NCBI GenBank assembly: GCA_017463245.1 | Contig: JAFTPN010000081.1 | Span: 1 to 53,662 of the forward strand | Direction of reading: 5' to 3' | DNA from: Clostridia bacterium | GTDB lineage: Bacteria; Bacillota; Clostridia; Christensenellales; Aristaeellaceae | DNA: 53,662 nt | Part shown: piece by piece, positions 741 to 51,233 of the stretch | Layout: every line of letters begins with the position of its first letter | Numbering within the stretch: position 1 is the stretch's first letter | Translations under genes and position numbers: made by a program | Notes under the pieces: model-generated | What the model was told of the DNA's origin: nothing | Databases searched by the model: none | The model's input: only the letters and a program-made list of their open reading frames with translations

Positions 741-1067
741 TTGAAACCTACGGTTTCAAACTTCCATTTATTTCGCCTTCGGCGACCAAAGGGGCGTTGC
801 CCCTTTGGAAACCCTACCAGAGGCGCTGCCTCTGGACTCCGCGAAGGGCTTTCAGCCCTTTCGAAACCCATCGGCTGATGTCATGCTATTTGGTTTCCTT
901 GTGGGGGTCACGGCGCATAACGGATGCGCCGCGACGCAGGGGCAGTGGCTAAGCCTCCCTTGTGTAAAGGGAGGTGGCAGCCGCTTGCGGCTGACGGAGG
1001 GATTGGGTGCCGCACTTTTAATTCCGCATTCCGAATTCCGCATTCCGAATTCCGCATTCCGAATTAA
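741..1067. repeat. composite intergenic repeat, copy 1 (modules A-B-C-F)
   Basis: Fills the tpiA-pgk gap. In order: a TTGAAACC/GGTTTCAA hairpin (741-759) next to the tpiA ribosome site; module A mini-hairpins with stems AAAGGGGC/GCCCCTTT, CAGAGGC/GCCTCTG and AAGGGC/GCCCTT (about 787-863); module B, GGGGTCACG plus the GGCGCA/TGCGCC hairpin (about 905-940); module C, CCTCCC...GGGAGG followed by an AGCCGC/GCGGCT hairpin (about 953-1003); module F, six ATTCCGM heptamers (1020-1065). No ORF in it looks real. The same order recurs at six other places in the window. Confidence 0.9.
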
Positions 1068-1092
1068 CCCTCGCCCTTCCCCAACGGCAAAT

Positions 1093-1123
1093 GTTCCCGC
1101 GCTCCGTTTCAGAGCGCGGGAAC
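1093..1123 (-). terminator. 12-bp stem hairpin behind pgk
   Basis: GTTCCCGCGCTC (1093-1104) pairs perfectly with GAGCGCGGGAAC (1112-1123) around a 7-nt loop, 15 bp beyond the pgk stop. The following U-run is poor on the minus strand, so it may be a weak terminator or an mRNA 3'-end stabiliser between pgk and tpiA. Confidence 0.5.
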
Positions 1124-1138
1124 CATGCAATTCGTGGA

Positions 1139-2335
<1,197 letters not shown>

Positions 2336-2405
2336 GAACCAACACTCCTTTGAATCGTTTACATGTATTGCATTTATTGCATAAGCCTCATTTTCAGGCG
2401 TGCAA

Positions 2406-3437: not shown

Positions 3438-3469
3438 GGTCATCCCTCCGGGCGCAATCCGTCCCATCC

Positions 3470-3498: not shown

Positions 3499-3540
3499 GC
3501 CTTTTGTCAAAGTTTTAACGGGCAGCTGCCGCCCAGCGGG

Positions 3541-13335: not shown

Positions 13336-13787
13336 GCCTGTGCCGCCTCTTTCCGGCGCAGGATGGTGCCCAGCACGCCGTTGATAAACCGGCCGCTGGC
13401 AGGCTCGGAATACCGGCTGGCCAGCTCCACGGCCTCGTTGATGGCCACGCTGCCGGGAACATCGTCCTCGTGCAGGATCTCCCAGGTCGCCAGGCGCAGG
13501 ATGGTCAGATCCACCCGGGGCATACGCTCGATGGTCCAGTCCTTGGCAGCGGCCTGGATCTGCTCGTCCAGCTCGTCCAGGTTGTTCACCACGCCATCCA
13601 GCACCCGGGTGATGTACTCCCGGTCAGCCTTGCCGGGCTCGTTGTCCCGCACGGCCTCCACACCGGGAACACCCTGCTCCCGCAGCTCGTCATAAACCAT
13701 CTGCAGCGTCTCTTCGCCACCCTGGCCACCAGCCAGCTTTTCATAAATCATCTGCATCACTGCAGCCCGCGCAGTCACTCGCGCCAT
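13332..13787 (-). CDS. nusB: transcription antitermination protein NusB
   Basis: Binds boxA RNA with S10 (NusE) to make rRNA transcription resistant to termination. 151 residues, all-helical; N-terminal RVTARAAVMQMIYE and the C-terminal SVAINEAVELASRYSEPASGRFINGVLG block are diagnostic. ATG at 13787 follows AAAGAGGAG. First gene after repeat block 2 and first of a tight run (4-bp overlap with the TsaD-like gene). No clear promoter separates it from amaP, so it may be read from the asp23-amaP transcript or from within the repeat. Confidence 0.96.
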   Translation of the reverse strand: MARVTARAAVMQMIYEKLAGGQGGEETLQMVYDELREQGVPGVEAVRDNEPGKADREYITRVLDGVVNNLDELDEQIQAAAKDWTIERMPRVDLTILRLATWEILHEDDVPGSVAINEAVELASRYSEPASGRFINGVLGTILRRKEAAQA

Positions 13788-13805
13788 AATGTATACACTC
13801 CTCTT

Positions 13806-14183
13806 TTGAAACCTGCGGTTTCAAGCTTCCCTTGTTTCGCCTTCGGCGACCAAAGGGGCTTTGCCCCTTTGGAAACCCTACCAGAGGGCACCGCCCTCTG
13901 GACTCCTGCTTAAGGGATTTCATCCCTTAAGAATCCCTTTCGGGGATGCCATGCTCTCTGGTCTCCGAGCAGGGGTCACGGCGCATAACGGATGCGCCGC
14001 GACGCAGCGGCACCCGCCAAAAGCCTCCCTCTCGAGGGAGGTGGCCGAGCGTAGCGAGGACGGAGGGAGTGGTTCTGCCCCCTTGCCTCAACGCCAAGCA
14101 TTCCCGCGCACCTGTAGGGGCGATCTGTGATCGCCCGCCCGTCCACAAACTAAATTCCGAATTCCGCATTCCGAATTCCGAAT
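13806..14183. repeat. composite intergenic repeat, copy 2 (A-B-C-E-F)
   Basis: Fills the amaP-nusB gap. TTGAAACC/GGTTTCAA hairpin (13806-13824) beside the nusB ribosome site; module A with stems AAAGGGGC/GCCCCTTT, AGAGGGC/GCCCTCT and TTAAGGGAT/ATCCCTTAA (about 13853-13930); module B (about 13973-14010); module C with CCTCCCT/AGGGAGG (about 14025-14075); module E, a TGTAGGGGCGA/TCGCCC hairpin (about 14110-14142); module F, four ATTCCGM heptamers (about 14155-14183) running into the amaP stop codon. No coding signal. Confidence 0.9.
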
Positions 14184-15320
14184 TTACTCCGCTTCTTTCT
14201 CGCCTTCCGCTTCCACGTCCGCCTCTTCCGCGCCGTCCAGCGCAGCCAGCTCGGCAATGGATTCCTCGTCCGCTACATAATCGGCAGCTTCTTCCACGGT
14301 TTCGATTTCTTCGACTTCCTCGGCTTCAGCGGTTTCTTCCACCGCTTCCACTTCCTCCACCTCGTCGGTCAGGCCGGAGAGGGTCTCCAGCTCGTCGGCA
14401 GCGGCGACCTCGGCAGCTTCTTCTTCGGCCTTTTCCCACGCAGCAACGATCTCCTCCGCAGGCACCTTCTTTTCAAAGGATTCCACTTCCTCGTCAGAAG
14501 GCACGTTGGCCTCCCAGGCTTCGGTAGCTTCCTCGGTGGGGATATCGGCTTCCTGCTCTTCTGCCACAGGCTCTTCGGCAGCTTCCTCAGCGGGGGCTTC
14601 CACCGGAGGCATGGGCATATTGGCAGGCTGCTCTTCTTCGCCAAACAGGCGCTGATGCAGGCACTTTTCCTCCGGCGCCTTCACCTCGGCAGGGGCGGGC
14701 TCGGCAGGCACTTCCGGCACCTGTTCTGCCTCGCGGGGCAGGGGCGCGGGATTCTCCAGCATTTCGGATACGGCATAGATGGAGGGCTTGGCCTTGGCGC
14801 TGGTGGCTTCCACCTGCACCTTCACTTCCTGCACATCCACACCGGAGCAGGCCGTGACATACTGCTTGATCTGCTTCTGCAGGGCACTCACAGCCAGGGG
14901 GATGTTCACCCCGGTGGCCAGACCCACTCGCAGGCCAATGGTCAGGCCGTCGCGGCTGTTGTCCAGCGTGGTGCTGGACACGTGCAGCTCTTCGTGCTTG
15001 GCCACGCACTTGTTCACCAGATCCTCAATGGCGCGGATGGAGATGCTCAATTCACCCACATCGGTGGTCTGCACCACAAAGCCCTTGCGCTTGGAGCGGC
15101 GCAGCGCCACCCGGAAGCACAGGATGCCCACCAGCAGCACCACAGCGCCGCCGCCCACCATGAACAGAATGTGGGATGCGGACTTGAACGCAGCGATCTT
15201 CGCCAGACGGTCGAGGATGCCCACGTCAAACAGAGTATCGGCCAGCGGCACCACGGCCAGACACACCAGCAGGATACCCGCCAGCGCAGCGATCAATCGG
15301 TCAATCACGCGAAGCTTCAT
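14184..15320 (-). CDS. amaP: AmaP-like alkaline-shock membrane anchor with long acidic tail
   Basis: In Staphylococcus AmaP anchors Asp23 to the membrane. 378 residues: two transmembrane helices (about 9-29 and 48-71), a conserved cytosolic domain (about 80-185; GELSISIRAIEDLVNKC, TIGLRVGLATGVNIP, VQEVKVQVE), then about 190 residues dominated by Glu and Ala. AmaP proteins are usually near 180-200 residues, so the acidic tail roughly doubles the length. ATG at 15320 has AAAGGAGG at eight bases; an upstream in-frame ATG does not. It lies downstream of an Asp23-type gene, with a terminator hairpin between. The stop codon is flush with repeat module F. Confidence 0.8.
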   Translation of the reverse strand: MKLRVIDRLIAALAGILLVCLAVVPLADTLFDVGILDRLAKIAAFKSASHILFMVGGGAVVLLVGILCFRVALRRSKRKGFVVQTTDVGELSISIRAIEDLVNKCVAKHEELHVSSTTLDNSRDGLTIGLRVGLATGVNIPLAVSALQKQIKQYVTACSGVDVQEVKVQVEATSAKAKPSIYAVSEMLENPAPLPREAEQVPEVPAEPAPAEVKAPEEKCLHQRLFGEEEQPANMPMPPVEAPAEEAAEEPVAEEQEADIPTEEATEAWEANVPSDEEVESFEKKVPAEEIVAAWEKAEEEAAEVAAADELETLSGLTDEVEEVEAVEETAEAEEVEEIETVEEAADYVADEESIAELAALDGAEEADVEAEGEKEAE

Positions 15321-15899: not shown

Positions 15900-15954
15900 A
15901 ATATTGCACCTCCTCAGGTTTCCATAACAGTATAACAGATTTTCCGCCCTTTGA

Positions 15955-16380
15955 CAAGCCCAAGGGGCTTTGCCCCTTGGGGAACCCCGCCAGAGGCTCT
16001 GCCTCTGGACTCCGCGAAGGGTCTTCGACCCTTTCGAAACCCTTTTTGGGGGATTGGAGCAGGGCGGTATTCTTGCAGGGGTCACGGCGCATAACGGATG
16101 CGCCGCGACGCGGGGCAAGCGGCGTTCCACCTCATCCGGCCTCACGGCCACCTTCCCCTCAAGGGGAAGGCAAGGCTTTTGCTCTCCACCAAAGGCTTCC
16201 CCTTGAGGGGAAGCTGTCCCGAAGGGACTGATGAGGTGGAAAGTCTCTCCCCTGCGTCGCGGTGCGCCCTTTGCGCACCGTGACCCCCGCTTGGCAGGCG
16301 CACGCTGCGCCATCCCCGAAAGGGAGTCCAGAGGGATGAAATCCCTCTGGCGGGTTTCCAAAGGGCGGAGCCCTTTGGCG
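15955..16380. repeat. composite intergenic repeat, copy 3: palindromic A-B-D-B'-A'
   Basis: 481-bp gap between asp23 and aspS. Left half: module A (about 15960-16045; stems AAGGGGC/GCCCCTT, AGAGGC/GCCTCT, AAGGGTC/GACCCTT), module B (about 16078-16115). Centre: module D (16126-16240). Right half: module B inverted (about 16252-16290) and module A inverted (about 16310-16380), ending at the aspS stop codon. The whole block is therefore one large imperfect inverted repeat. No gene seen. Confidence 0.9.
16126..16240. mobile_element. module D: 115-bp MITE-like inverted-repeat element
   Basis: Ends are TCCACCTCAT and ATGAGGTGGA (10-bp terminal inverted repeat). Inside, CTTCCCCTCAAGGGGAAG and CTTCCCCTTGAGGGGAAG palindromes flank a variable centre. 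Further copies are at 43149-43262 and 51067-51184. There is no ORF; if mobile, it needs an enzyme encoded elsewhere. Confidence 0.6.
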
Positions 16381-18153
16381 TTACTCCTCGTCCTTCACAA
16401 TGGCGATGTGCAGCTCGTCAAGCTGCTTCTGTTCCACGGTGCCGGGGGCGCCCATCATCACGTCCTGGGCGTTCTTGTTCATGGGGAACACGATGACCTC
16501 GCGGATGGACTCCTCGCCAGCCAGCAGCATCACCATGCGGTCGACACCGGGGGCGATACCGGCATGGGGCGGAGCGCCGTAGCAGAAGGCGTTGTACATG
16601 GCGGGGAACTTGGCCTTCACGTCCTCCTCGCCCAGGCGCACCATCTGGAACGCCTTGATCATGATCTCCGGATCGTGGTTACGCACAGCGCCGGAGGACA
16701 ATTCCACGCCGTTGCACACCAGGTCGTACTGGAAGGCGGTGATGGACAGGGGATCCACCTCGCCCGCAGCGGCCTTGTTCAGGATCTCCAATCCGCCGTT
16801 GGGCATGGAGAAGGGATTGTGGCAGAACTCCAATTCGCCGGATTCCTCGCCGATCTCGTACATGGGGAAATCCACGATCCAGCAGAACTCGTAGCGCTCC
16901 CGGTCGATGTGCTGGGGCGCCAGCTCGGCCACCATCTTGCGCAGGGTGCCTGCGGTCTTCTGGGCGGCCAGCTTCTTGCCCGCGGTGAGGCCAACGAAGG
17001 TGTTGGGCTTCAGGTTCAGCTTGGAGATGATCTCGTCCTTCTTGTCCTGCAGGAACTTGGCGATGCCGCCGGCGATTTCGCCCTTTTCGTCCACCTTGAA
17101 CCAGAAGGCCTTGTTGCCGGTCACCACTTCCACATCGCCGCAGAGCTTGTCGATCTGCTTGCGGGTGGCGATCATGTCGGAGACAACGACGGCCTTCACC
17201 ACATTGCCCTCGAAGGGACCGAAGCCGCAGGAGCCGATGAGCTCGGTCACGTCGGTCAGGGTCAGGTCGATGCGCAGATCAGGCTTGTCGGAGCCGTACA
17301 CATCCATGGCCTCGTTGAAGGGGATGCGCTTGAAGGGCGCGGAGGAAGCAATGTTGTACTTGCCATACTTGGCGAAGATGGGGGGCAGCACATCCTCCAG
17401 CACGGCGAACACGTCGTCCTGGGAGGCAAAGGCCATTTCCATGTCCAGCTGATAGAACTCGCCGGGGCTGCGGTCGCCGCGGGCGTCCTCGTCGCGGAAG
17501 CAGGGGGCGATCTGGAAATACTTGTCGAAGCCGGAGGTCATCAGCAGCTGCTTGAACTGCTGGGGAGCCTGGGGCAGGGCGTAGAACATGCCGGGATGCT
17601 TGCGGGCAGGCACCAGGTAGTCGCGGGCGCCCTCGGGGGAAGAAGCGGTCAGGATGGGGGTGGTGATCTCCAGGAAGCCGTGCTCGTTCATGGCGTTGCG
17701 CAGGGCGGACACCACATTGCAGCGCATGATGATGTTCTTCTTCACCTCGGGGTTGCGCAGGTCCAGGTAGCGGTACTTGAGGCGCAGGGTCTCATCGGCT
17801 TCCTTGGAGCGGTTGATCTGGAAGGGCAGCTCGTTGTAGCGGCAGCGGCCCAGCACCTCGATCTTCTCCGGCACCACTTCGATATCGCCGGTCTCCATCT
17901 TGGGGTTCTTGGAGTCGCGCTCGCGCACCACACCGGTCACGGCAATGGTGGACTCCTTGTTCAGCCCCTTGATCACGGCCATCATATCCTCGGTCTCCAC
18001 CACGATCTGGGTGGTGCCGTAGAAGTCGCGCAGCACCACGAAGGCCAGGCTGCCGGACACTTCGCGGACGTTCTCCATCCAGCCGCAGAGCTTCACGGTC
18101 TTGCCGCAGTCAGCCATGCGCAGTTCATTACAGGTATGTGTACGGTTCTGCAT
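16381..18153 (-). CDS. aspS: aspartyl-tRNA synthetase
   Basis: Class II synthetase charging tRNA-Asp (and perhaps tRNA-Asn; no GatCAB in view). 590 residues, the bacterial-type length: OB anticodon-binding domain (1-105, GWMENVREVSGSLAFVVLRD), motif 2 around FRDEDARGDRSPGEFYQLDMEM, the bacterial GAD insertion (about 290-410), and motif 3 GVDRMVMLLAGEESIREV. ATG at 18153 follows GAGGTAAATGTT. It is downstream of hisS by 57 bp, so it falls under the same T-box. The stop codon abuts repeat copy 3. Confidence 0.97.
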   Translation of the reverse strand: MQNRTHTCNELRMADCGKTVKLCGWMENVREVSGSLAFVVLRDFYGTTQIVVETEDMMAVIKGLNKESTIAVTGVVRERDSKNPKMETGDIEVVPEKIEVLGRCRYNELPFQINRSKEADETLRLKYRYLDLRNPEVKKNIIMRCNVVSALRNAMNEHGFLEITTPILTASSPEGARDYLVPARKHPGMFYALPQAPQQFKQLLMTSGFDKYFQIAPCFRDEDARGDRSPGEFYQLDMEMAFASQDDVFAVLEDVLPPIFAKYGKYNIASSAPFKRIPFNEAMDVYGSDKPDLRIDLTLTDVTELIGSCGFGPFEGNVVKAVVVSDMIATRKQIDKLCGDVEVVTGNKAFWFKVDEKGEIAGGIAKFLQDKKDEIISKLNLKPNTFVGLTAGKKLAAQKTAGTLRKMVAELAPQHIDRERYEFCWIVDFPMYEIGEESGELEFCHNPFSMPNGGLEILNKAAAGEVDPLSITAFQYDLVCNGVELSSGAVRNHDPEIMIKAFQMVRLGEEDVKAKFPAMYNAFCYGAPPHAGIAPGVDRMVMLLAGEESIREVIVFPMNKNAQDVMMGAPGTVEQKQLDELHIAIVKDEE

Positions 18154-18177: not shown

Positions 18178-18210
18178 ACATTCCGAATTCCGCATTCCGA
18201 ATTCCGAATT
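18178..18210. repeat. ATTCCGM heptamer tract between hisS and aspS
   Basis: Four tandem heptamers ATTCCGA/ATTCCGC, directly touching the hisS stop codon. Module F alone, without the other modules. Confidence 0.85.
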
Positions 18211-19473
18211 TTACTTCAGCATTTCCTGCACGGCATTCGCCGCCTCGGCCATGGGAATGGTGCATTCTTCCTTGGTGTTCATGTTCTTGATCTTCACCAC
18301 GCCGTTTGCCACTTCGTCATCGCCCAGGGTGGCGCACAGGGGCGCGCCGGTCTTGTTGGCATACTTGAACTGTGCCTTCAGGCTGCGGCCGGTGTGATCC
18401 ATATCGGCGCGGATGCCTGCCTGGCGCAGCTGCTGCACCAGGGAGAAGGCCGCGACCTTGTTCTCGCCCATGAAGGTGACGAACACATCGTACTGGTTGG
18501 GCTTGGGCAGCTCGATGCCCTCGCCCTCCAGCAGCATCAGCACGCGCTCGATGCCCATGCCGAAGCCCACCGCGTGCAGCGCAGGGCCGCCCAGCTGCTC
18601 CACCAGATTGTCGTAACGGCCGCCGCCGCACACGGTCAGGTTGCCGTCCTTGGTGGTGGTGATCAGCTCAAACACGGTCTTGGTGTAGTAGTCCAGGCCG
18701 CGGACGATGCGGCTGTCGATCTGGTAAGGAATGCCAGCGGCCTCCACGCACTTCTGCAGCTGGGCGAAGTGCTCCTTGCACTCGTCGCACAGCACGTCCA
18801 GCATGGAGGGAGCGTCCTTCACCAGCTCCTGGCAATGCTTTTCCTTGCAGTCCAGCACGCGCAGGGGGTTGCGCTCGAAGCGGGTCTTGCAGGTGGCGCA
18901 CATCTCGTTGATGCGGTCAGCCAGGTATTCCTTCAGCAGCGCGTGGTACTTCGGGCGGCACTCAGGGCAGCCGATGGAGTTGATGTTCACGGAGAGATTC
19001 TTCACCCCCAGCCTGCTCAGCAGGGTGAAGGCGGCCATGATCAACTCCGCATCGGCGGTGGCGTCCTTAGCGCCGAAGCACTCCATGCCAAACTGGTGAT
19101 GCTCGCGCAGGCGGCCGTTTTGCGGCGCCTCATAGCGGAAGATGGGGGCGTTGAGGTAGTACATCTTGCAGGGCAGGGCATCGGCATAGAGGCTGTGCTC
19201 CACCAGGGCGCGCACGGCGCCGGCGGTGCCTTCGGGCTTCAGGGTAATGGAGCGGTCGCCCTTGTCCTTGAAGGTGTACATTTCCTTCTGCACGATGTCG
19301 GTGGTGTCGCCCACGCCGCGCAGGAACAGCTCGGTATGCTCGAACACGGGGGTGCGAACCTCGCGGAAGCCCGCCTCGGCAGCCACCTGCCGCTGCATCG
19401 CTTCTACATATTGAAAGCGGTAGCTGTCCTGGGGCAGCACATCCTTTGTGCCGCGGGGAGCCTGAGTCAACAT
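18211..19473 (-). CDS. hisS: histidyl-tRNA synthetase
   Basis: Charges tRNA-His. 420 residues. Class II motifs: APRGTKDVLP at the start, motif 2 FRYEAPQNGRLREHHQFGMECFG, the histidine-A motifs RIVRGLDYYTKTVFE and GGGRYDNL, motif 3 GFGMGIERVLMLL, then an anticodon-binding domain (about 325-420). ATG at 19473 has GGAGGG seven bases upstream. Preceded by a T-box leader and followed by aspS, an order common in Firmicutes. Confidence 0.97.
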   Translation of the reverse strand: MLTQAPRGTKDVLPQDSYRFQYVEAMQRQVAAEAGFREVRTPVFEHTELFLRGVGDTTDIVQKEMYTFKDKGDRSITLKPEGTAGAVRALVEHSLYADALPCKMYYLNAPIFRYEAPQNGRLREHHQFGMECFGAKDATADAELIMAAFTLLSRLGVKNLSVNINSIGCPECRPKYHALLKEYLADRINEMCATCKTRFERNPLRVLDCKEKHCQELVKDAPSMLDVLCDECKEHFAQLQKCVEAAGIPYQIDSRIVRGLDYYTKTVFELITTTKDGNLTVCGGGRYDNLVEQLGGPALHAVGFGMGIERVLMLLEGEGIELPKPNQYDVFVTFMGENKVAAFSLVQQLRQAGIRADMDHTGRSLKAQFKYANKTGAPLCATLGDDEVANGVVKIKNMNTKEECTIPMAEAANAVQEMLK

Positions 19474-19764: not shown

Positions 19765-19777
19765 CGGGAAGGAAGCT

Positions 19778-19888
19778 TAATTCGGAATGATGAATTCGGA
19801 ATGCGGAATTGATAGTGCACCTTTTGCATGACCAATGGTGAACCAGTTCACAAACTTAATTCCGAATTCCGCATTCCGAATTCCGAAT
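19778..19888. repeat. two opposed heptamer tracts
   Basis: An inverted, degenerate module F (CGGAAT units, about 19778-19812) and a normal four-unit ATTCCGM tract (about 19858-19888) flank about 45 bp of non-repeat DNA. The second tract touches the stop codon of the neighbouring gene. This is the only F tract in inverted orientation. Confidence 0.8.
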
Positions 19889-20851
19889 TTACCACGTCGC
19901 TTTCAGCGCTTCCTTCACACAGTCCTGATGGTCGCTGTCCACCCGGTTGGTCTCGTGGGTCTTGCTTCCGGTGAAGTGGATGCAGAAGTGTCCGTTGAAG
20001 CCATTGCTGATGGTGCTGGTGCCGTGGGGCATGCCGTTCATGGAGGCGGCGTAGACGTGGCCGTTGTATTTCACCAGAATGGGGCGGCGCGTCCAGCTCC
20101 AGCTGCCGCCGTAGATGGACTTCATGGTGGCGGTGTCCTCCTTGCTGGCGGGCTCGGTGTCCATGTGGTTGGCGCCGCTCCACCGCACGGCGGTGAAGGT
20201 CTTGCCCGTCAGCACGTCCTTGATGGTCACCGTGGCGCCCTTGGGGATGGTGTTCTCGCTGCCGAACCATTTCAGGGATTCCGTCTGGATGGCCTTGTCG
20301 TCCGCAGCGTTCTGGCCGAAGAGGGTCTTGATGGTCACCTTGCCCGCAATGCCGTCCCGACTCAGGCCGTGCTTCTTCTGGAAGGCCTTCACCGCCGCGG
20401 TGGTGCCGCTGCCGTAGATGCCATCGATCTTTCCTTTATAATGGCCTTTGATCTGCAAAGCCTGCTGCAGCTTCTTCACATGGCTGCCGGTATCGCCGGG
20501 GCGGGAGGTGGCGGGCGCGTCGCCCAGGTCGGCAATGGACTGCTTGCTTTCCTCTTTGGCGGTGGTCTGCTCTTCCACCTTGCCGCTGACCTTGACGTAT
20601 TGCTTCATCACATAACCGGTGTATTTGCCATAGCTGACCTTGTACCAGTCCCCGGTGGAGGAAAGCACCTCCAGGGTGTCGCCCCTGTCCAGGGTCTGCA
20701 AGGCCTTGCTGGTTTTGCTGGCGGACTTGCGCAGCACCAGCGACGAGGTATTCACCTTGCCCTGTGCCGCCTGAGCCGCCGGGGCAAGCAACAGCAGCAC
20801 CGCCGCCAGGCCGCCCGCTGCCAGGCGACGCAGTTGGTTCATCTTCTGCAT
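19889..20851 (-). CDS. secreted SH3 / peptidoglycan-binding protein with conserved C-terminal domain
   Basis: 320 residues. Signal peptide (about 1-29, ending AAQA), bacterial SH3 domain (about 32-88; SSLVLRKSASKTSKALQTL, GDWYKVSYGKYTGYV), a short linker, a PG_binding_1 domain (about 118-180; GDTGSHVKKLQQAL, IDGIYGSGTTAAVKAFQKKHGL), and a C-terminal domain (about 195-320) with ANHMDTEP, NGMPHGTSTI and GHFCIHFTGSKTH. The His/Cys-rich last motif suggests an enzyme active site reminiscent of L,D-transpeptidase folds, but the canonical HG...SHGC signature is not present. Role in wall or spore envelope is plausible. Start chosen by AAAGGAG eight bases upstream. Confidence 0.8.
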   Translation of the reverse strand: MQKMNQLRRLAAGGLAAVLLLLAPAAQAAQGKVNTSSLVLRKSASKTSKALQTLDRGDTLEVLSSTGDWYKVSYGKYTGYVMKQYVKVSGKVEEQTTAKEESKQSIADLGDAPATSRPGDTGSHVKKLQQALQIKGHYKGKIDGIYGSGTTAAVKAFQKKHGLSRDGIAGKVTIKTLFGQNAADDKAIQTESLKWFGSENTIPKGATVTIKDVLTGKTFTAVRWSGANHMDTEPASKEDTATMKSIYGGSWSWTRRPILVKYNGHVYAASMNGMPHGTSTISNGFNGHFCIHFTGSKTHETNRVDSDHQDCVKEALKATW

Positions 20852-21000: not shown

Positions 21001-21019
21001 GACATACGGTTTTTGAAGA

Positions 21020-21090
21020 AACCTGTGCCGTAGACAGCCGGTATCCGCAAGGATCTAAGGGAGTCCGCTCCGCCTGCCGAGGTGTGAAGG
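21020..21090 (+). ncRNA. ribosomal protein L10 leader
   Basis: The leader contains the conserved L10-leader elements CCGTAGACAGC, GGATCTAAGG and TCCGCCTGCCGAGG in order (21028-21082). In Firmicutes L10 (or L10-L12) binds this RNA to repress its own operon. It is followed by an attenuator hairpin. Confidence 0.85.
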
Positions 21091-21109
21091 ATAGTTTTTG
21101 TCAAGCTCT

Positions 21110-21138
21110 CCCTTGCGCCTGCGCAAGGGTTTTCTTTT
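21110..21138 (+). terminator. attenuator in the rplJ leader
   Basis: CCCTTGCG (21110-21117), CCTG loop, CGCAAGGG (21122-21129), then TTTTCTTTT. It stands between the L10-binding RNA and rplJ, so it suits premature termination when L10 is in excess. Confidence 0.85.
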
Positions 21139-21170
21139 ACTCTCAAACCATTGAGGAGGTGCAAGAAGAA

Positions 21171-25479: not shown

Positions 25480-25843
25480 CCAGAGGCTCTGCCTCTGGAC
25501 TCCGCCCAAGGGCTCTGCCCTTGGGGATCCCGGTCAGGGCTCTGCCCTGACAACCCGCGAAGGGACTTCGTCCCTTTCGAAACCCATCCTGTGTGGACAT
25601 ACAGGGTGGGTTTTCCTTTGGGGTCACGGCGCAAATACGGTTGCGCCGTGACGCGGGGACTGTTTGGTTTCGCACTCCAAAAGCCTCCCTCTCGAGGGAG
25701 GTGGCCGAGCGCAGCGAGGACGGAAGGAGTGGTTCTGCCACTTGCCCCACACCAAACTTCCCTTGCACCTGTAGGGGCGATCTGCGATCGCCCGCCCGCC
25801 CACAAACTAAATTCCGAATTCCGCATTCCGAATTCCGAATTTC
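25480..25843. repeat. composite intergenic repeat, copy 4 (A-B-C-E-F)
   Basis: Starts one base after the fhs stop. Module A here has four mini-hairpins: AGAGGC/GCCTCT, CAAGGGC/GCCCTTG, TCAGGGC/GCCCTGA and GAAGGGAC/GTCCCTTTC (about 25481-25582). Module B is GGGGTCACG with GGCGCAA/TTGCGCC (about 25620-25658); C about 25680-25740; E about 25768-25800; F four heptamers (about 25810-25840). The gap lies between convergent fhs and cysK and holds no gene. Confidence 0.9.
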
Positions 25844-25848
25844 CCCAC

Positions 25849-25880
25849 AAAAAGAACGCCTCCCTCGAGGCGTTCTTTTT
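25849..25880. terminator. bidirectional terminator serving cysK (and the fhs side)
   Basis: AAAAAGAACGCCTC, 4-nt loop, GAGGCGTTCTTTTT: a perfect A-tract/stem/T-tract symmetric terminator, 3 bp from the cysK stop. Confidence 0.92.
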
Positions 25881-25883
25881 GCA

Positions 25884-36144: not shown

Positions 36145-36438
36145 CCAGAGGAGGCTCTGCCTCCTCTGGACTCCACCGCCCAAGGGCTCTGCCCTTGGGG
36201 AACCCGCTTAAGGGTCTTCGACCCTTAAGAATCCCTTTCGGGGATGGCATAGTTGGGTAATCTTCGAGCAGGGAGTTCAAAGCGGCGCATGGCGAGGCCA
36301 AAAGCCTCCCTCCCCGAGGGAGGTGGCAGCCGCTTGCGGCTGACGGAAGGAGTGGTTCTGCCGCTTCCCCCAACGCCATTCATTCTCCCCGCGCCACACT
36401 CTCAATTCCGAATTCCGCATTCCGAATTCCTAATTTCC
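36145..36438. repeat. composite intergenic repeat, copy 5 (A-B degenerate-C-F)
   Basis: Begins at the telA stop. Module A stems: AGAGGAGGC/GCCTCCTCT, CAAGGGC/GCCCTTG, TTAAGGGTC/GACCCTTAA (about 36147-36232). Module B is reduced to a short GGCGCATGGC remnant (about 36281). Module C about 36303-36360, F four heptamers (about 36402-36435). It ends 20 bp before the lemA-like start; no gene within. Confidence 0.88.
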
Positions 36439-36457
36439 TTTGGAGGCTTTCGCCGTA

Positions 36458-39356: not shown

Positions 39357-40860
39357 CGCCCTGGCCACCAACGTGGGCGACAGCCTCATCGTGGGCATCC
39401 AGTCCACCAAGACCACTCGCCTCCAGCCCCTTGACCCCGTGGAGCGGGACATGATGAGCGTCTACGACCTGGTGTACGAGAGCCTGATCACCATCGACGA
39501 CGATTACCTCCCCCAGGCCGGTCTGGCCGAGAGCTGGGAGGAATCCGGCGGCGGCAAGACCTGGACGTTCCAGCTGCGCGAGAACATCTTCTTCTCCGAT
39601 GGCACGCCCATGACTGCCCACGACGTGGTGGCCACCGCCCAGTACATCCTTGACCGCGCCAACGAGGAGGATTCCCAGAACCCCGGCTATTACTTCAACC
39701 TGAAGTACTTCATCAAGAGCATCTCCGCCTCCGGCGACCACACCGTGGTGGTGAAAACCGCCAACGGCCGCCACTACTGGGGCGTGCTCTATGCCATGAC
39801 CTTCCCCATCCTGCCCAAGGACAAGGTCACCGCCGATAATCCCCCCGGCACCGGCGCTTACATGATCTCCACCTTCGAGGCCGGCGACTACATCTGGCTG
39901 CAGCAGAATCCCCACTGGTGGCAGACCCGCCCCCAGGTGCAGGAGATCATGGTCATCATGCACGATTCCCCCAAGGCAGTTATCGAGAGCTACGAATACG
40001 CCCGGGTGGACACCATTTTCACCCGCTCCATCGCCGCCGCCCAGCACAAGAGCGGCACCACCTCCCTGGCGCTGGACTACCGCACCAACCAGCTGGAGAC
40101 CGTGCTGATCAACCACAAGTCCTTCCCCCTGGATTCCCTGGCCGTGCGCCAAGCCATCCGCTATCTCATCGACCCTGACAAGATCGCCAGCCAGGTGTAC
40201 ATGGGCATGGTGGAGCGCACCGACACCCCCATGATCCCCGGCACCTGGATGTACAACGACACGCTGAGCAACTATTTCGTCACCGATGTGGAAGCCGCCC
40301 GCCGCCTGCTGGAAGAGGACGGCTGGTCTGACACGGACGAGGACGGCGTGCTGGACAAGCTGGACTCCAAGGGCAACAAGAAAAACCTGCACCTGCGCAT
40401 TTACGTTTACGAAGAGCCGGACAACAATGTGCGCGTAGAGACCGCCAACCTCATTGCCGATATGCTGGGACAGGTGGGCATTTCCACCAAGGTGGAGATC
40501 ATGACCTTCACCGATATCCAGGCCAAGCTGAAGGCCGCCTCCTTCGACCTGGCGCTGGCCTCCTTCGCCATGGACGCCTGCCCCGATCCGGGCTACCTGC
40601 TCATGACCGGCAACACCGGCAACTATGGCCTCTACAAGAGCACCGACATGACCAACCTCTGCAAAGACCTGCGCACCCAGCTCACCCAGGACGGCTACCG
40701 CCAGTCCCTGTGGAACATCCAGTCCCGCTTTGCCGAGGACATCCCCTTCATCTGCCTCTTCTACCGCTCCGGCTCCGTCCTCACCCGCCAGATGTACACC
40801 ACCGCCCGCGATGTCCGTGAACTCGAACTCCTCCGCGGCATCGACACCTTCCACCCCTAA
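39283..40860 (+). CDS. family 5 extracellular solute-binding protein (oligopeptide type)
   Basis: 525 residues (SBP_bac_5). Secretory signal (RLLPLVLSLLLLCSNALA) without a lipobox cysteine at the cleavage site, so not an evident lipoprotein. Core motifs: AGLAESWEESGGGKTWTFQLRENIFFSDGTPMTAHDV, PPGTGAYMI, VRQAIRYLIDPDKI; a DTDEDGVLDK segment (about 348) looks like a calcium-type loop common in this family. No permease or ATPase genes are nearby. Start 39283 lies inside the transglycosylase gene; ATG 39295 is an alternative. The stop touches repeat copy 6. Confidence 0.9.
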   Translation: MRSTMRFFIKRLLPLVLSLLLLCSNALATNVGDSLIVGIQSTKTTRLQPLDPVERDMMSVYDLVYESLITIDDDYLPQAGLAESWEESGGGKTWTFQLRENIFFSDGTPMTAHDVVATAQYILDRANEEDSQNPGYYFNLKYFIKSISASGDHTVVVKTANGRHYWGVLYAMTFPILPKDKVTADNPPGTGAYMISTFEAGDYIWLQQNPHWWQTRPQVQEIMVIMHDSPKAVIESYEYARVDTIFTRSIAAAQHKSGTTSLALDYRTNQLETVLINHKSFPLDSLAVRQAIRYLIDPDKIASQVYMGMVERTDTPMIPGTWMYNDTLSNYFVTDVEAARRLLEEDGWSDTDEDGVLDKLDSKGNKKNLHLRIYVYEEPDNNVRVETANLIADMLGQVGISTKVEIMTFTDIQAKLKAASFDLALASFAMDACPDPGYLLMTGNTGNYGLYKSTDMTNLCKDLRTQLTQDGYRQSLWNIQSRFAEDIPFICLFYRSGSVLTRQMYTTARDVRELELLRGIDTFHP

Positions 40861-41150
40861 GGGGCTTTGCCCCTTATGAATCCCCACCAGAGGGGCGTTG
40901 CCCCTCTGGACTCCCCACGAAGGGTCTTCGACCCTTTCGAAACCCATGCGGGGATGGCGCTGCTAAGCGGTCTCCGAGCCGGGGTCACGCCGCGCAACGG
41001 GCGCGCCGCGACGCGAGACCGTTAGTGAGGCTCCCCTTCGTAGGGGAGCTGTCCCGAAGGGACTGAGGGGTTGAGCCTCCCTTGTGTAAAGGGAGGTGGC
41101 AGCCGCTTGGCTGTACAAATGTAGGGGCGAACTGTGTTCGCCCGCCCCTC
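40861..41150. repeat. composite intergenic repeat, copy 6 (A-B-D/C partial-E)
   Basis: Begins at the stop codon: stems AAGGGGC/GCCCCTT, AGAGGGGC/GCCCCTCT, AAGGGTC/GACCCTT (about 40859-40945); module B with CCGCGC/GCGCGC-type stem (about 40980-41016); a half-copy of D (AGGCTCCCC...GTCCCGAAGGGACTGA, about 41030-41066); a C fragment (about 41072-41110); E with GGGGCGAA/TTCGCCC (about 41121-41146). Module F is displaced beyond the next small gene. Confidence 0.88.
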
Positions 41151-41389: not shown

Positions 41390-41425
41390 CTCAATTCCGC
41401 ATTCCGAATTCCGAATTCATAATTA
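41390..41425. repeat. ATTCCGM heptamer tract before prmA
   Basis: Three to four heptamers ending CATAATT, 20 bp before prmA; the displaced module F of copy 6. Confidence 0.8.
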
Positions 41426-41445
41426 CTTTCAAAGGATGATGTTCA

Positions 41446-43124: not shown

Positions 43125-43148
43125 AGCTGCTAAGCTCATGTGCTGCTT

Positions 43149-43262
43149 TCCACCTCATCCGGCCTCACGGCCACCTTCCCCTCAAGGGGAAGGCTCAAGC
43201 GTGCGCACCGACAAAGGCTTCCCCTTGAGGGGAAGCTGTCCCGAAGGGACTGATGAGGTGTA
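43149..43262. mobile_element. module D MITE-like element, solo copy
   Basis: TCCACCTCAT ... ATGAGGTG ends; internal CTTCCCCTCAAGGGGAAG and CTTCCCCTTGAGGGGAAG palindromes, and GTCCCGAAGGGAC. Fills the rsmE-mtaB gap; the only module present here. Its right end is 35 bp from the mtaB start. Confidence 0.65.
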
Positions 43263-43296
43263 GTCCTCAAACTTATACTCACTGGAGTTGACCTCA

Positions 43297-44595
43297 TTGA
43301 ACACCGTAGCATTCCACACTTTAGGTTGTAAAGTCAACCAATACGACACCCAAGCCATGCTGGAACTCTTCCGCGCCGCAGGCTACGCCATCCTCCCCTT
43401 CCACGAGAATGCGGATGTCTACGTGGTAAACACCTGCACCGTCACCGGCACCGGCGACAAGAAATCCATGCAGATCACCCGCCGATTGCGCCGGGAGCAT
43501 CCGGAGAGTGAGATCATCCTCTGCGGCTGCCTTGCCCAGCGCAAGGGCGAAGAGCTGCTGGACACCGGCGCCCGGCTGATCCTTGGCACCCAGCGCCGGG
43601 GCGAGGTGGTCACCCTGCTGGAGCAGGCCGTGCGCGAGGGCAAGCAGATCTGCGCCGTGGACGCCCTCACCACCGCCACGCCCTTCGAGAACCTGACCAT
43701 CACCGATCAGGAGGAGCACACCCGCGCCACGCTGAAAATCCAGGAGGGCTGCAACAACCATTGCACCTACTGCATCATCCCCAGCGTGCGCGGCCCCATC
43801 CGCTCCCGCCCCCTGCACGAGGTGGCCACCGAAGCCCGCCGCCTGGCCGATGCTGGCTTCCGCGAGCTGGTGCTGACGGGCATCCACCTTTCCAGCTACG
43901 GCAAGGACTTGCAGGATGGCTCAACCCTGCTGGACGCCATCCAGGCCGTGCAGGATGTGCCGGGGGTAAAGCGCATCCGCCTGGGCAGCCTGGAGCCCAC
44001 CATCGCCACGGCGGAGTTCTCCGCCCGTCTGGCGCAGATGGACAAGGTCTGCCCCCAGTTCCACCTGGCGCTGCAATCCGGCAGCGATACCGTGCTGGCA
44101 CGCATGGCTCGGCGCTACAACAGCCGGATGTACCTCACCGCGGTGGAGAACCTCCGCGCCGCCTTCCCCCACGCCGCCTTCACCACCGATGTGCTCACCG
44201 GCTTCCCCGGCGAAACGGAGGAAGAATACCAGGAGACCCGCCGCATGATCGAAAGGGTCGGCTATGCGAAAATCCACGTGTTCCCCTACTCCCAGCGGGA
44301 AGGCACCAAGGCCGCTGTGATGCCGAACCAGCTGCCCAACGCCCTGAAGGATCAGCGTGCCCGGGAGCTGATCGCCCTGGGTGAGACCACCGCCCGCGCC
44401 TATCAGGAAAGCTGGCTGGGCTGCACCGCCACCGTGCTGGTGGAGGAGCAGGACGCCGCCGGCAACTGGCTGGGCTACACCCCGGAGTACATCCAGGTCA
44501 CGCTGCCGGACTGCCCTGCTTGCCAAAGCGGCGCGGTGGTAGATGTGCGGCTCACTGAAATCCTCGGCGAGGGCATGAAAGGAGAACTGGTATGA
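43297..44595 (+). CDS. mtaB: tRNA t6A37 methylthiotransferase MtaB
   Basis: Radical-SAM enzyme adding methylthio to t6A at tRNA position 37. 432 residues: N-terminal UPF0004 domain with three Fe-S cysteines (TLGCKVNQ, NTCTVT, LCGCLAQR), radical-SAM motif CNNHCTYC, and a C-terminal TRAM region. NTCTVT and the protein length favour MtaB over MiaB or RimO. TTG at 43297 is chosen because GGAG lies nine bases upstream; a TTG three codons earlier abuts it. Overlaps the lipoprotein gene by ATGA. Confidence 0.93.
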   Translation: MNTVAFHTLGCKVNQYDTQAMLELFRAAGYAILPFHENADVYVVNTCTVTGTGDKKSMQITRRLRREHPESEIILCGCLAQRKGEELLDTGARLILGTQRRGEVVTLLEQAVREGKQICAVDALTTATPFENLTITDQEEHTRATLKIQEGCNNHCTYCIIPSVRGPIRSRPLHEVATEARRLADAGFRELVLTGIHLSSYGKDLQDGSTLLDAIQAVQDVPGVKRIRLGSLEPTIATAEFSARLAQMDKVCPQFHLALQSGSDTVLARMARRYNSRMYLTAVENLRAAFPHAAFTTDVLTGFPGETEEEYQETRRMIERVGYAKIHVFPYSQREGTKAAVMPNQLPNALKDQRARELIALGETTARAYQESWLGCTATVLVEEQDAAGNWLGYTPEYIQVTLPDCPACQSGAVVDVRLTEILGEGMKGELV

Positions 44596-47765: not shown

Positions 47766-47795
47766 GTGCGGGCGAACACAGTTCGCCCCTACAAA
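47766..47795. repeat. solo module E, inverted
   Basis: GCGGGCGAA...TTCGCCCCTACA hairpin, the reverse complement of module E in copy 6. No other module here. Confidence 0.75.
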
Positions 47796-47943: not shown

Positions 47944-48954
47944 ATGAATTACTGCTTTCAATTACTGCCTCACGCCAACATACGTTATCAGGAATCGCTG
48001 AACCTGCTGGGTACAGCCGAGCTTTCCTGCATGCTCAAGGCCTTGCATATCGAATCCGAAGTGCAGCTTCGCACCATTGGCGGAGCGCCTTTTCTCTGCT
48101 TTGAAGCACCGGAGCTGACCGACAGCCAGCTTTCCGCCCTCTCCCGCCACAGCGCGCTGACGCTTTTGTGCCAGGAGGAAAACGGCCTGCTGCGCCCCCT
48201 GGAGCGCCCCGCTGCCGATTACCTCCCCCGCGACCTGGCGGAGGTGCTGAAATACAAGGGCAAAACCAGCGCCGTGTTCACCCACATGATGATCAACCTG
48301 GCGCTTACTGCCAGCAAGTCCTTTGGCGCTGCGCAGCCCGTCACCGTGCTGGATCCCCTCTGTGGCCGCGGCACCACGCTGTTTGTGGCGCTGCAGCAGG
48401 GCATGAACAGCGTGGGCATCGACCTGGATCGCAAGGATCTGAAGGAAGCCGCTGACTACTTCAGCCGCTACCTGCAATATCACCGGCTGAAGCACAAGCT
48501 GGAGCAGGGCTCCCGCACGGTGCGGGGCAACAGCGTGCCCGATGCGGTGTACACCCTGGCCACCAGCAAACAGGCCTTTCAGGCAGGTGACACCCGCAGC
48601 CTGCGCATGCTGCTGGGCGACACCAGCTACATCTCCGCCCTGCTGAAAAAGACCCCTGCGGATATTCTCGTCACCGACCTGCCCTATGGTGTGCAGCACG
48701 CACCCCAGGAGGGGCGCCGCCCGGAGAACTTCCCCGGCATGCTGCGCCGCGTGCTTCCCGCCTGGAAGGACGCCCTCAAGCCCGGCGCAGGCCTGGCCAT
48801 CAGCTTCAACAGCCTCACCCTGCCCCGCGCCACCTTAGTGGAACTGCTGGAAGGCGCTGGCTTCCAGGTGCTGACGGAAGCACCCTACGATAACTTTGAG
48901 CATTTTGTGGAACAGGCCGTGACCCGCGATGTGGTCGTGGCGCGCAAAGCATAA
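47944..48954 (+). CDS. class I SAM-dependent nucleic-acid methyltransferase (TRM11/UPF0020-like)
   Basis: 336 residues. An N-terminal part (about 1-85) rich in beta structure with no clear motif, then a Rossmann methyltransferase core: VLDPLCGRGTTLFVALQQG (SAM motif I), SVGIDLDRKDL, and motif IV DILVTDLPYG, a variant of the (N/D)PPY of amino-methyltransferases. This suggests an RNA or DNA base-amine methylase, probably tRNA or rRNA guanine-N2, but the target is unknown. ATG at 47944 follows GAAGAGGG; an in-frame ATG seven codons upstream lacks a ribosome site. Confidence 0.75.
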   Translation: MNYCFQLLPHANIRYQESLNLLGTAELSCMLKALHIESEVQLRTIGGAPFLCFEAPELTDSQLSALSRHSALTLLCQEENGLLRPLERPAADYLPRDLAEVLKYKGKTSAVFTHMMINLALTASKSFGAAQPVTVLDPLCGRGTTLFVALQQGMNSVGIDLDRKDLKEAADYFSRYLQYHRLKHKLEQGSRTVRGNSVPDAVYTLATSKQAFQAGDTRSLRMLLGDTSYISALLKKTPADILVTDLPYGVQHAPQEGRRPENFPGMLRRVLPAWKDALKPGAGLAISFNSLTLPRATLVELLEGAGFQVLTEAPYDNFEHFVEQAVTRDVVVARKA

Positions 48955-49018
48955 AAATCCCCTCTTTGATCATATCCTATCTTATCTTTTCTGTACGCAT
49001 TAGTAGGAGGCAATACCC

Positions 49019-50908
49019 TTGACAACGCAAGAACTGAATGCAAAAACGGTGATCGAACTGCGAAAGCTGGCCAAGGAAAACGGCGTGAAGCTGGGCGCAG
49101 GGGTTTCCAAGAGCGACATTGTGGCCAAGCTGGCCGCTGCCCTTGGCGATGCGCCCGCCCCCGCCGTGGCGGAGGAAGTCACCGCCGAGGCCGTCATTCC
49201 GGAGGATAACGCCCCCATCACAAAGCCTGAGCCTGCCGCCCAGCCCCAGTTCAAGGCTGCCTGGCACAACCCTGCGCCCCGCTACAACAGCAAGCCTGCT
49301 TATCAGGCGCCCACCTACCCCCAGCGTCCCGCCTGGCAGAGCAACCAGGCGCGACCCGCCATGGAGGTGCAGCGCCCCGCGCCCGTGCGCCAGAACACCT
49401 ACACCCCCCGCTTCGGCCCCGGTGCCTCCACGCCCGCCAATGAGCAGCGCGAGGAGGAGTATCGCCCCTTCCGCAGCGAGCCTGCTGCCCGCACCGGCTT
49501 TGGCCCCGCCGCCCAGGAGCGCCGCCCTGCCTATGGCGAAGCGCCCCGGGGCGAATATGGCCAGCAGCGCAGCTTCGAGCAGCCCCGGCAATACGAGGCA
49601 CAGCCTGCCTACTCCAACAACAATACCTACAATAACAACTACAATTCCGGCTACAACCGTGGCTATGCGCCCCGCCCGGCCTACAATCAGCCCCGGGAGC
49701 AGGCCGCCTATCCCCAGCAGCAGGATCCCTCCGCCCCCAACCCCGCCGTGACCGAGCTGCTGGCCGCCGGCGAGTGCGGCGACGGCAGCGGCGTGCTGGA
49801 GCTGCATCCCGATGGCTACGGCTTCCTGCGCTCCGACCATTTCCTGCCCTCTGCCAAGGATATCTATGTTTCCATGGCGCAGATCCGCCGCTTCGGCCTG
49901 CGCACCGGCGACCGGGTGGTTGGCAAGACCCGCCCCCAGCGCGATGGCGACAAGTACACCGCCATGCTCTACATCACCGAGGTCAACGGCCAGAATGCCG
50001 ACGAAACCCAGACCCGCCCCTCCTTTGAGGAGCTGACGCCCATCTATCCCACCCGCCGCATCGACCTGGAAGCCCACGACGGTGCCAAGCTGGACGATAT
50101 GCGCCTCATCGACCTGATCGCCCCCCTGGGCTTTGGTCAGCGCGGTCTGCTGCTCTGCCCGCCGGACACCGGCAAAACCACCCTTTTGCAGAACTTTGCC
50201 AATGTGATCACCGCCAACCACCCCGATGCCACCGTGATGGTGCTTCTCATCGACGAGAACCCGGAGGACGTGACCCTCTTCCGCGACCAGGTGAACTGCC
50301 AGGTGCTGGCCTCCACCTTTGACCAGCCCCCGGAGAACCACCTGCGCCTCACCGACATGGTGCTGGAGCGCGCCCAGCGCCTGGTGGAGCAGGGCAAGGA
50401 CGTGATCCTCATTGTGGACAGCCTCACCCGCCTGGCCAAGGTGTACACCACCGCCGCCGCCCAGCAGGGCCGCAGCCTGCCCGGCATGGTGAACCCCACC
50501 AGCCTGTTCCGTGCCAAGAAGCTCTTCGGCGCTGCCCGCTGCGTGAAGGAGGGCGGCAGCCTCACGGTCATCGGCGCCATGAACATCGAGACCGGCTCCA
50601 AGGTGGACGACAGCGTGGTGGAGGAATTCAAGGGCACCGCCAACATGGAGCTGGTGCTGGACGTTTCCCTGGCGCACGCAGGCGTCAAGCCGCCCATCAA
50701 CCTGCAGCTCTCCGGCACCAAGCGCGCCGAAGCCCTGCTGAACGACGCCCAGCTGGAAGGCCTGCGCCTCGTCCGCTCTGTGCTGGGCACCACCCGCCCC
50801 AACGCCGCCATCCCCCAGATCCTCTCCCTCCTGTCCAAAACCGACTCCAACGACGCCTTCCTCGCCAAATTCAAGGACTGGGTCGCGCTCATGGAGAAGA
50901 GCAGGTAA
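49019..50908 (+). CDS. rho: transcription termination factor Rho, divergent, with long N/Q/Y/P-rich insertion
   Basis: Hexameric RNA-dependent ATPase that ends transcription. 629 residues versus 419 in E. coli. N-terminal Rho_N helices (about 1-42, IELRKLAKENGVKLGAGVSKSDIVAKLA), a low-complexity insertion (about 45-245: many Pro/Arg/Gln/Tyr, with a YSNNNTYNNNYNSGYNRGY core), cold-shock RNA-binding domain (about 255-330, HPDGYGFLRS), and RecA-like ATPase. The P-loop reads PPDTGKT (family PPKAGKT); Walker B VDSLTRLA is intact. The loop after it (QQGRSLPGMVN), the AHAGVKPP segment and SGTKRAE differ from the usual Q-loop, R-loop and SGTRKEE. TTG start with AGGAGG eight bases upstream. The stop touches repeat copy 7; rpmE follows, as in many Firmicutes. 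Confidence 0.92.
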   Translation: MTTQELNAKTVIELRKLAKENGVKLGAGVSKSDIVAKLAAALGDAPAPAVAEEVTAEAVIPEDNAPITKPEPAAQPQFKAAWHNPAPRYNSKPAYQAPTYPQRPAWQSNQARPAMEVQRPAPVRQNTYTPRFGPGASTPANEQREEEYRPFRSEPAARTGFGPAAQERRPAYGEAPRGEYGQQRSFEQPRQYEAQPAYSNNNTYNNNYNSGYNRGYAPRPAYNQPREQAAYPQQQDPSAPNPAVTELLAAGECGDGSGVLELHPDGYGFLRSDHFLPSAKDIYVSMAQIRRFGLRTGDRVVGKTRPQRDGDKYTAMLYITEVNGQNADETQTRPSFEELTPIYPTRRIDLEAHDGAKLDDMRLIDLIAPLGFGQRGLLLCPPDTGKTTLLQNFANVITANHPDATVMVLLIDENPEDVTLFRDQVNCQVLASTFDQPPENHLRLTDMVLERAQRLVEQGKDVILIVDSLTRLAKVYTTAAAQQGRSLPGMVNPTSLFRAKKLFGAARCVKEGGSLTVIGAMNIETGSKVDDSVVEEFKGTANMELVLDVSLAHAGVKPPINLQLSGTKRAEALLNDAQLEGLRLVRSVLGTTRPNAAIPQILSLLSKTDSNDAFLAKFKDWVALMEKSR

Positions 50909-51233
50909 GGGGCTTCGCCCCTTAACCCCAGCAGAGGCTCTGCCTCTGCACTCCGCCAAAGGGTCTTCGACCCTCTGGACTCCCTTTCTGGGATTCCCGG
51001 CATGGCGGTCTCCGAGCAGGGGTCACGCCGCGCTATGGGCGCGCCGCGACGCGGGGGAAGAGGCTTTCCACCTCATCCGGCCTTCGGCCACCTTCCCCTC
51101 AAGGGGAAGGCTTTACGCCGGACAACTGCAAAAGGCTTCCCCTTGAGGGGAAGCTGTCAGCGCTTGCGCTGACTGATGAGGTGTAGACCACAAACTAAAT
51201 TCCGCATTCCGCATTCCGAATTCCGAATTATTC
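50909..51233. repeat. composite intergenic repeat, copy 7 (A-B-D-F)
   Basis: Begins at the rho stop. Module A stems AAGGGGC/GCCCCTT (loop TTC), CAGAGGC/GCCTCTG, AGGGTC/GACCCT (about 50906-50985); B with CCGCGC/GCGCGC-type stem (about 51019-51056); D (51067-51184) with CTTCCCCTCAAGGGGAAG and its partner; F four heptamers (about 51198-51232). No gene. It ends 14 bp before the rpmE promoter. Confidence 0.9.

Follow-up and report, generated by a model that had tools for sequence, protein, structure and literature searches.

An ordered composite repeat of hairpin modules at gene ends in a genus of Clostridia, with sites kept and slot contents differing between species

The window analysed here is the whole 53,662-nt stretch of contig JAFTPN010000081.1 (Clostridia bacterium, family Aristaeellaceae, assembly GCA_017463245.1). 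Reading, a repeat search and module detectors find that seven of its long gaps hold the same short modules in the same order, A, B, C or D, E and F. Together these form a composite repeat, typically 300-400 bases long and non-coding, of which this uncultured genus of gut Clostridia has dozens of copies. The earlier note on this DNA had described the seven gaps and the order, both of which are real, but had placed B, E and F in every gap. A occurs in all seven, as does C or D, whereas B is intact in six (gap 36145 holds a degenerate remnant), F is present in five and E in three (13806, 25480 and 40861). All five slots are filled in only two gaps (13806 and 25480).

Below, a prime marks an inverted module, and A3 or A4 gives the number of A hairpin units. 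The two full composites, both on the plus strand, are A3-B-C-E-F at 13806..14185 (A 13850-13931, B 13972-14004, C 14022-14045, E 14113-14140, F 14154-14185) and A4-B-C-E-F at 25480..25845, which begins directly 3' of the stop codon at 25479. Also on the plus strand are A3-B-C-F at 741..1069 (A units 786-860, B 904-936, C 952-978, F 1021-1069), whose A side is turned towards the start of a minus-strand gene, and A3-(degenerate B)-C-F at 36145..36439, directly 3' of the stop codon at 36144. For A3-B-C-C-E at 40858..41147 (+), the stop codon TAA forms part of the first hairpin, and the closest F lies further on, at 41394..41428 (+), behind a short frame that comes after the composite. A-B-D-F at 50906..51233 (+) likewise begins at a stop codon. 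The seventh gap, 15955..16380, contains a double unit on both strands, A3-B-D-B'-A' (B 16078, D 16130-16236, inverted B 16254-16287, inverted A 16328-16378), so that half of this gap lies on the opposite strand.

Modules are also found singly in the window, as the earlier note had seen near 18178 (F), 43149 (D) and 47766 (E). The lone F at 18180..18211 (+) adjoins the stop codon of the minus-strand gene 18211-19473, the lone D occupies 43153..43258 (no strand assigned), and the lone E at 47766..47793 is inverted (minus strand). An inverted pair F'-F at 19775..19893 (both strands; modules 19778-19890), not described before, is an insertion of ~120 bp directly beside a stop codon. Neither this pair nor the lone F at 18180..18211 is present at the matching sites of the sister species (G064) or of two further relatives, G184 and G089 (G174 is the third further relative compared). 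The site of the lone D has another repeat in G064 and G174 and a short spacer in G184.

Module A is a run of small hairpins that generally starts at the stop codon of the preceding gene; a linker then leads to B, and 16 of 48 such linkers carry GGGTTTT close to B. B forms a single imperfect hairpin in which an A-C mismatch is conserved. Across 40 distinct 34-nt sequences, taken from loci of this genome and its relatives, 11 of the 12 stem positions mostly pair (85-100%), and the remaining one has A opposite C in 37 sequences. The stem holds 40 double-change cells; 500 shuffles give a mean of 11 and a maximum of 20, and sliding one side against the other leaves no more than 5. The B detector required 9 of 12 pairs and is thus biased to pairing, with the varying upper stem left free in the patterns that fetched most loci. 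D is, in our own reading, two C-like halves placed head to head, and behind B it stands in both orientations (14 and 4 of 48 copies in this genome). C/D, E and F occur alone too, partly as inverted pairs; in composites, C, E and F mostly appear as single halves, with E and F almost always found as one copy in a constant orientation. Inverted F pairs make up 3 of 8 cases off composites and 0 of 17 within them (p=0.02), while the corresponding figures for C-type pairs (9/14 and 8/26, p=0.05) and for E pairs (3/6 and 1/13, p=0.07) fall short of significance at 0.05.

Some copies contain additional sequence. An insertion (start near TGAGCGATGCGAG, end near CGATTGAGG) lies within A or C hairpins of G064 at 13758-14183, of locus L017 and of G184 at C57:11257. 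A second, ~80 bp long and containing an AT-rich palindrome, interrupts D at an identical point in two copies (L058 ~16897-17109 and L062 16832-17379). In locus L018, a linker-B-D segment is tandemly duplicated within one composite, with an exact shared piece of 234 nt.

Module order was counted in the window plus 20 stretches of three contigs of this genome (C57 and C68 whole, C18 from 1 to 120,000), 436,162 bases in total; the three contigs were picked for length among those bearing B, and B-free contigs are not represented. The detectors are regular expressions tuned on this genome, and absences in relatives are therefore overcounted (for example, the E of G064 beside 25480 has the tag CGTAG). 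Same-strand neighbours follow the order A, B, C/D, E, F in 86 pairs and run backward in 2; the other neighbours among the 154 pairs are same-slot (51) or on opposite strands (15). The ratio is 53 to 1 when A is not counted. Stretches of seven relatives give 187 forward and 3 backward pairs, with 143 same-slot and 16 opposite-strand pairs; five relatives supply the forward pairs, and many loci were fetched because they bear B. Outside the window the order is kept almost without exception on either strand. The earlier statement that the order is never shuffled is thus nearly right.

The spacing in this genome is equally regular. The gaps are 18-19 nt from B to D (19/19), 40-42 nt from D to E (11/11), 20 nt from C to C (9/9), 63-68 nt from C to E (13/14) and 13-18 nt from E to F (12/13). 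Two lengths are usual from the last A to B (39-45 nt in 41/51, 69-75 nt in 9/51) and from B to C (13-17 nt and 28-33 nt, each in 14/30). The spacers themselves are similar, without full identity, from copy to copy. A recognised A unit lies at most 180 nt from B for 52 of 55 B modules, and in the other three A is broken, duplicated or imperfect by eye. The slots are nearly independent of one another, as 8 of 10 slot pairs in 48 copies show no association at p<0.05.

Order, fixed spacing and similar spacers bear out the view that the modules did not accumulate at random. They do occur independently in part (C/D, E and F are found alone), but their order with A-B is not random. Separate mobile families might nevertheless have gathered where insertions are tolerated, each with a preference for the side away from its predecessor, in which case the order would be the sequence of arrival. 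This would agree with the lone modules and inverted pairs, with the different and patchy ranges of the modules in the order, with the apparently late entry of D into its slot in both orientations, and with the other insertions inside hairpin modules. Separate insertion at each site does not fit, however, because the spacers resemble each other in sequence and length across copies, and the single, uniformly oriented E and F of the composites also speak against it. We regard this explanation as unlikely.

The position of the composites with respect to genes was determined for 51 A-B composites (the sample above and 30 B loci) with a simple gene caller started from preset amino-acid frequencies. 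In 38 of the 49 composites with a neighbouring gene beside A, this gene points towards the composite, and the distance from its stop codon to the first recognised A unit has a median of 0 nt (at most 5 nt in 27/38, at most 30 nt in 34/38). For several composites, a TAA stop codon belongs to the first hairpin. Among the 43 composites with a gene on either side, 25 share their A-to-F direction with both genes and 10 oppose both; the flanking genes converge on 7 and diverge from 1. By comparison, the sample has 148 spacers that reach 100 bp or more, counting those with composites, and 39 of them are divergent (p=0.0002). Most composites are therefore part of the 3' untranslated region of the gene that precedes them, read from A to F, and would most likely act on transcript 3' ends. 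This role is read from position, and two results weigh against it: 11 of the 49 composites face the other way, three of them in the window (741, 13806 and 15955), and a terminator scan of 25400-26000, covering that one copy, found none.

The same data bear on the idea of a structured RNA or DNA element under selection, its fixed architecture maintained by a function at transcript ends or in supercoiling, as has been proposed for repetitive extragenic palindromes (REPs). The RNA fold of the composite at 25477-25845 is strong (z -8.3), B has compensating changes, and the placing at stop codons, the near absence of composites from divergent spacers and the GGGTTTT near B all agree with such an element. 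Slots are often missing, however, and their contents differ at orthologous genes; the 600-kb contig C39 of G064 has few B (see below), Rfam has no match, and the terminator scan is negative. A functional architecture of this kind is therefore rather improbable as the main explanation.

A strict B pattern has 74 places in the 2.70-Mb draft of this genome (36 forward, 38 reverse), and the reversed control has 0. Among 200 genomes of the family, strict B is found in seven, every one of them among the 11 of this genus. A scan of contigs of named genomes gave at least 80 B loci among the matches listed, all in Clostridia or Clostridiales metagenome bins and, where the title tells, from the gut of water deer, roe deer or sheep. 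Of 81 genomes examined in the order, this one included, six have strict E, two have F and two a D half, and one A-unit pattern occurs in this genome alone. With A limited to 1 of 81 and B to this genus, the A-B core would seem to be characteristic of the genus, and the other families have a wider, patchy range. A restriction to one lineage, which the earlier note had named as support for a distinct element, is thus what we find for the A-B core in the sampled genomes.

A fixed polarity relative to the chromosome strand was considered and rejected: the copies of the window share one direction, except for the inner half of 15955, yet C57 has B copies on both strands, and so has the genome as a whole. 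In G064, the 400 kb read of C39 contain 3 B. This may be assembly bias or a true regional lack, and we draw no conclusion, because repeat-free contigs assemble longer. With the composite 25480-25845 as query, plasmids gave no match, and phage collections gave four partial matches (14-30% of the query), which are unannotated and from human faeces.

E consists of TGTAG and a hairpin and has 119 strict places in this genome. It shows the tested traits of GTAG-type REPs, namely the GTAG tag, the hairpin and inverted dimers; the first 49 E places listed include 11 inverted pairs with a spacing of 67-69 bp. A 165-aa open frame (L055:1456-1950, G000:C60) contains one E and one inverted E in frame, and a relative of this gene (L056:1465-1962, G205:C63) has two in-frame E-type REPs of the same kind with another loop stem. 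The two inverted REPs lie at corresponding places in both genes, and the REP variants differ. Against Y1_Tnp the two products score 25.7 and 23.2, just above the cut-off of 23, and against NF047646, the REP-transposase model of NCBI, they score 64.4 and 66.5, below the cut-off of 80. The sole solved relative of L055 at E<=1 is a TnpArep chain (E=0.003). Judged from sequence comparison, these genes are putatively REP-transposase-like, with E lying inside the predicted gene. As far as the available part of the literature describes GTAG REPs and REPINs with their REP-associated tyrosine transposases (RAYTs), E alone of the modules qualifies by its TGTAG, hairpin and inverted pairs; it is also tied to the putatively transposase-like gene, but differs in that E copies lie inside the frame of that gene. 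GTAG repeats are named for Proteobacteria, Cyanobacteria, Chloroflexi and the PVC group, and 'firmicutes' and 'clostridi' are absent from the main text of PMC3733652. CGTC REPs are described there, in the same accessible part, as having a stem of 8-9 bp that begins with AT in its first two positions, the CGTC tag lying outside it. B was tried as such a REP and is excluded by its stem geometry: read backwards, the GTC of its tag is paired to GAC, and its stem opens with G-C pairs.

For comparison between species, orthologous stretches were retrieved that cover most of the window as well as two 20-kb parts of C57, selected for their richness in B. At 10 of the 11 sites with an alignable G064 spacer, a composite occurs in the same orientation; the lone exception is 15900-16380, where G064 carries another repeat. 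None of these 11 sites clearly postdates the split from this nearest species. The contents are less stable. At 13806 the sister species has A3, the insertion-bearing C and F, and at 36145 its B is intact. At 50909 the A part is nearly the same, but B and the C/D slot are other variants, C replacing D. Site 15955 has A-B-B'-A' in G174 and G184 and a different repeat in G064 and G089. At 25480, 36145, 40861 and C57:11257, 86659 and 91743, some slots agree across species and others differ. A separate repeat with the motif CGAAGGTTTCCAAAGGGC and GGTCGCCGCCGCAGCGGCGAAA, which partly resembles A read backwards, was seen at sites where this genome has a composite or D (G064 and G089 at 15941-16380; G064 and G174 at 43125-43356).

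Scored slot by slot, 20 site pairs between this genome and G064 include one with all five slots alike. Agreement is 14/20 for the linker (33% in unmatched pairs), 5/20 for B (11%), 4/20 for C/D (29%), 13/20 for E (48%) and 11/20 for F (29%). None of the 19 pairs with G174 has all slots alike, and B agreed in one. A label-free comparison with G064 alone used 30-nt windows at 19 of the 20 pairs (flank identity at least 90%), the detectors serving only to find B. In windows that start 30-60 nt past the B start, in the C/D region, 17-18 of the 19 sites have a paralogue from this genome that beats the orthologue by 4 bases or more, and the orthologue fit averages 16-18 of 30. At -180, where the compared stretch begins, a paralogue is better at 0/19 sites, and the orthologue fit is 26.7 of 30. 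Overall identity to G064 is 26.7 of 30 in module-free spacers, 20.4 in composite spacers and 15.1 in unrelated sequence. Slot contents in the C/D region thus resemble paralogues more than the orthologue at sites that are themselves conserved.

Within this genome, the best whole-unit identity among 48 copies is 0.63-0.86, and the longest exact piece shared between copies is 39-93 nt (median 59), leaving out the one tandem duplication. These values bear on the suggestion that the composite is a non-coding mobile unit. A non-autonomous element resembling a miniature inverted-repeat transposable element (MITE), with the whole A-to-F unit still transposing, would account for the dozens of copies, dispersed yet constant in order and spacing, and for sites filled in this genome and G064 but empty in others (C57:86659, where G174 and G184 have 30- and 22-bp spacers). 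Recent whole-unit copying does not fit, however, because no near-identical pair exists among the 48 copies (none is more than 86% alike), and no site among the 11 is clearly new. The unit has no terminal inverted repeats that we could see, its A and F ends being unlike by eye, and no transposase is tied to A or B. A unit that moves whole today is thus not borne out, and we hold continuing transposition of the whole to be quite unlikely.

The differences in content could in principle be misassemblies of short-read metagenome bins. The drafts are fragmented (92 contigs here), the named genomes are metagenome bins, and the repeat does break assemblies, as several contigs begin ~250 bases or less from a B. 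Exact matches to another copy are short, however, as given above; the differences are visible against the assemblies of four relatives; and the variants differ at many places, beyond any single join. We consider misassembly very improbable as the source of the slot swaps.

We favour, as the probable explanation, an old composite with an A-B core whose copies stay put and whose slot segments are traded between copies. The unit would have been assembled once and then have spread in the ancestor of the genus. Copies would now seldom arise or vanish, and segments of ~40-90 nt may be exchanged between them, possibly by gene conversion or by template switching at hairpins. Because the exchange would be between equal slots, order would survive while contents get rewritten. 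Mobile halves such as D might, in addition, enter the same slot anew from outside. D stands behind B 19 times in this genome and once in the relatives read (116 B), and therefore seems to be a recent arrival, at one place.

Several points weigh against this account. The occurrence of D in both orientations implies targeted entry at least in part and fits conversion less well. Part of the content is inherited, because linker, B, E and F agree with G064 more often than unmatched pairs do. Two slot pairs are associated in the 48 copies (linker-F, p=0.006; B-C/D, p=0.013). In the label-free comparison, choosing the best of 47 paralogues tilts the result somewhat towards paralogues, 5 of the 19 pairs are well matched on one flank only, and L003 or L011 may be mispaired, because both sites were paired with one G064 locus. 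No slot exchange was caught within a single species.

A possible but unlikely variant is that the hairpins (B with its conserved mismatch and the REP-like C, E and F halves) are themselves exchange points, one slot being swapped at a time like a cassette. Single-strand-acting enzymes or hairpin-triggered repair would be the agents, among dozens of gene 3' ends. If so, 3' regions would be rewritten between species faster than coding parts mutate, with the syntax fixed.

Composite bacterial repeats have long been known, and the reason for a kept module order is seldom testable. Comparison of species here separates site, order, spacing and content: site and order stay, and content changes. The question could be tested with strain collections, and the composite offers a natural case of slot-wise exchange of small structured DNA at gene ends. 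It is also a warning that orthologous 3' regions in such genomes are not comparable base by base.

With patterned, different subsequences in many intergenic copies, the element is a composite small interspersed repeat. Bacterial interspersed mosaic elements (BIMEs) are mosaics of REP-like palindromes and other motifs outside genes, in which one palindromic unit alternates in orientation. Our composites are likewise such mosaics outside genes, but here different families occur once each in one orientation, and opposite-strand neighbours are few, which sets them apart from BIMEs proper. By architecture and slow site turnover, the nearest known system appears to be BOX, with BIMEs and REPINs next. 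According to the portions of the source at hand (PMC3049150), BOX of Streptococcus pneumoniae and S. suis is a composite of ordered modules with 125 copies, stem-loops and lone modules; many of its sites are old and shared and few are new, and the S. suis forms consist of seven subsequences in particular permutations. On architecture, the only aspect compared, and within the same portions, BOX and the present element share ordered different modules, stem-loops, lone modules and stable sites, and have 125 copies and 74 B cores, respectively. They differ in that BOX sites vary in the number of boxB, whereas here alternative families fill a slot and orthologous contents differ, and in that BOX is reported to be in excess between convergent genes, whereas our composites adjoin stop codons. 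The BIMEs of enterobacteria are named in the parts at hand of PMC3049150 and PMC2817692.

Thus the element belongs with BOX and BIMEs among composite interspersed repeats and represents a new family, one that is unusual in that its parts seem to be exchanged slot by slot. The earlier note knew no named family with this architecture; the family does appear to be without a name, although architectures of this kind are known. In the open-access literature no report of this composite, or of REP composites in Clostridia, was found, most subscription papers and preprints lying outside that search. At gathering score Rfam has nothing at the composites of the window; 100 kb of C57 bearing composites give SRP RNA, SAM and tRNA only, and 25470-25890 at E<=1 gives two matches, both far below cut-off. 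The only Rfam match elsewhere in the window is L10_leader, an ordinary ribosomal protein L10 leader (RF00557) at 21010-21144 (47.9 bits). Two further dispersed repeats, of ~180 bp (L062:19807-19987) and ~150 bp (L058:1-152), have many copies in G064, and the ~180-bp repeat is found in G174, G089 and G184 too.

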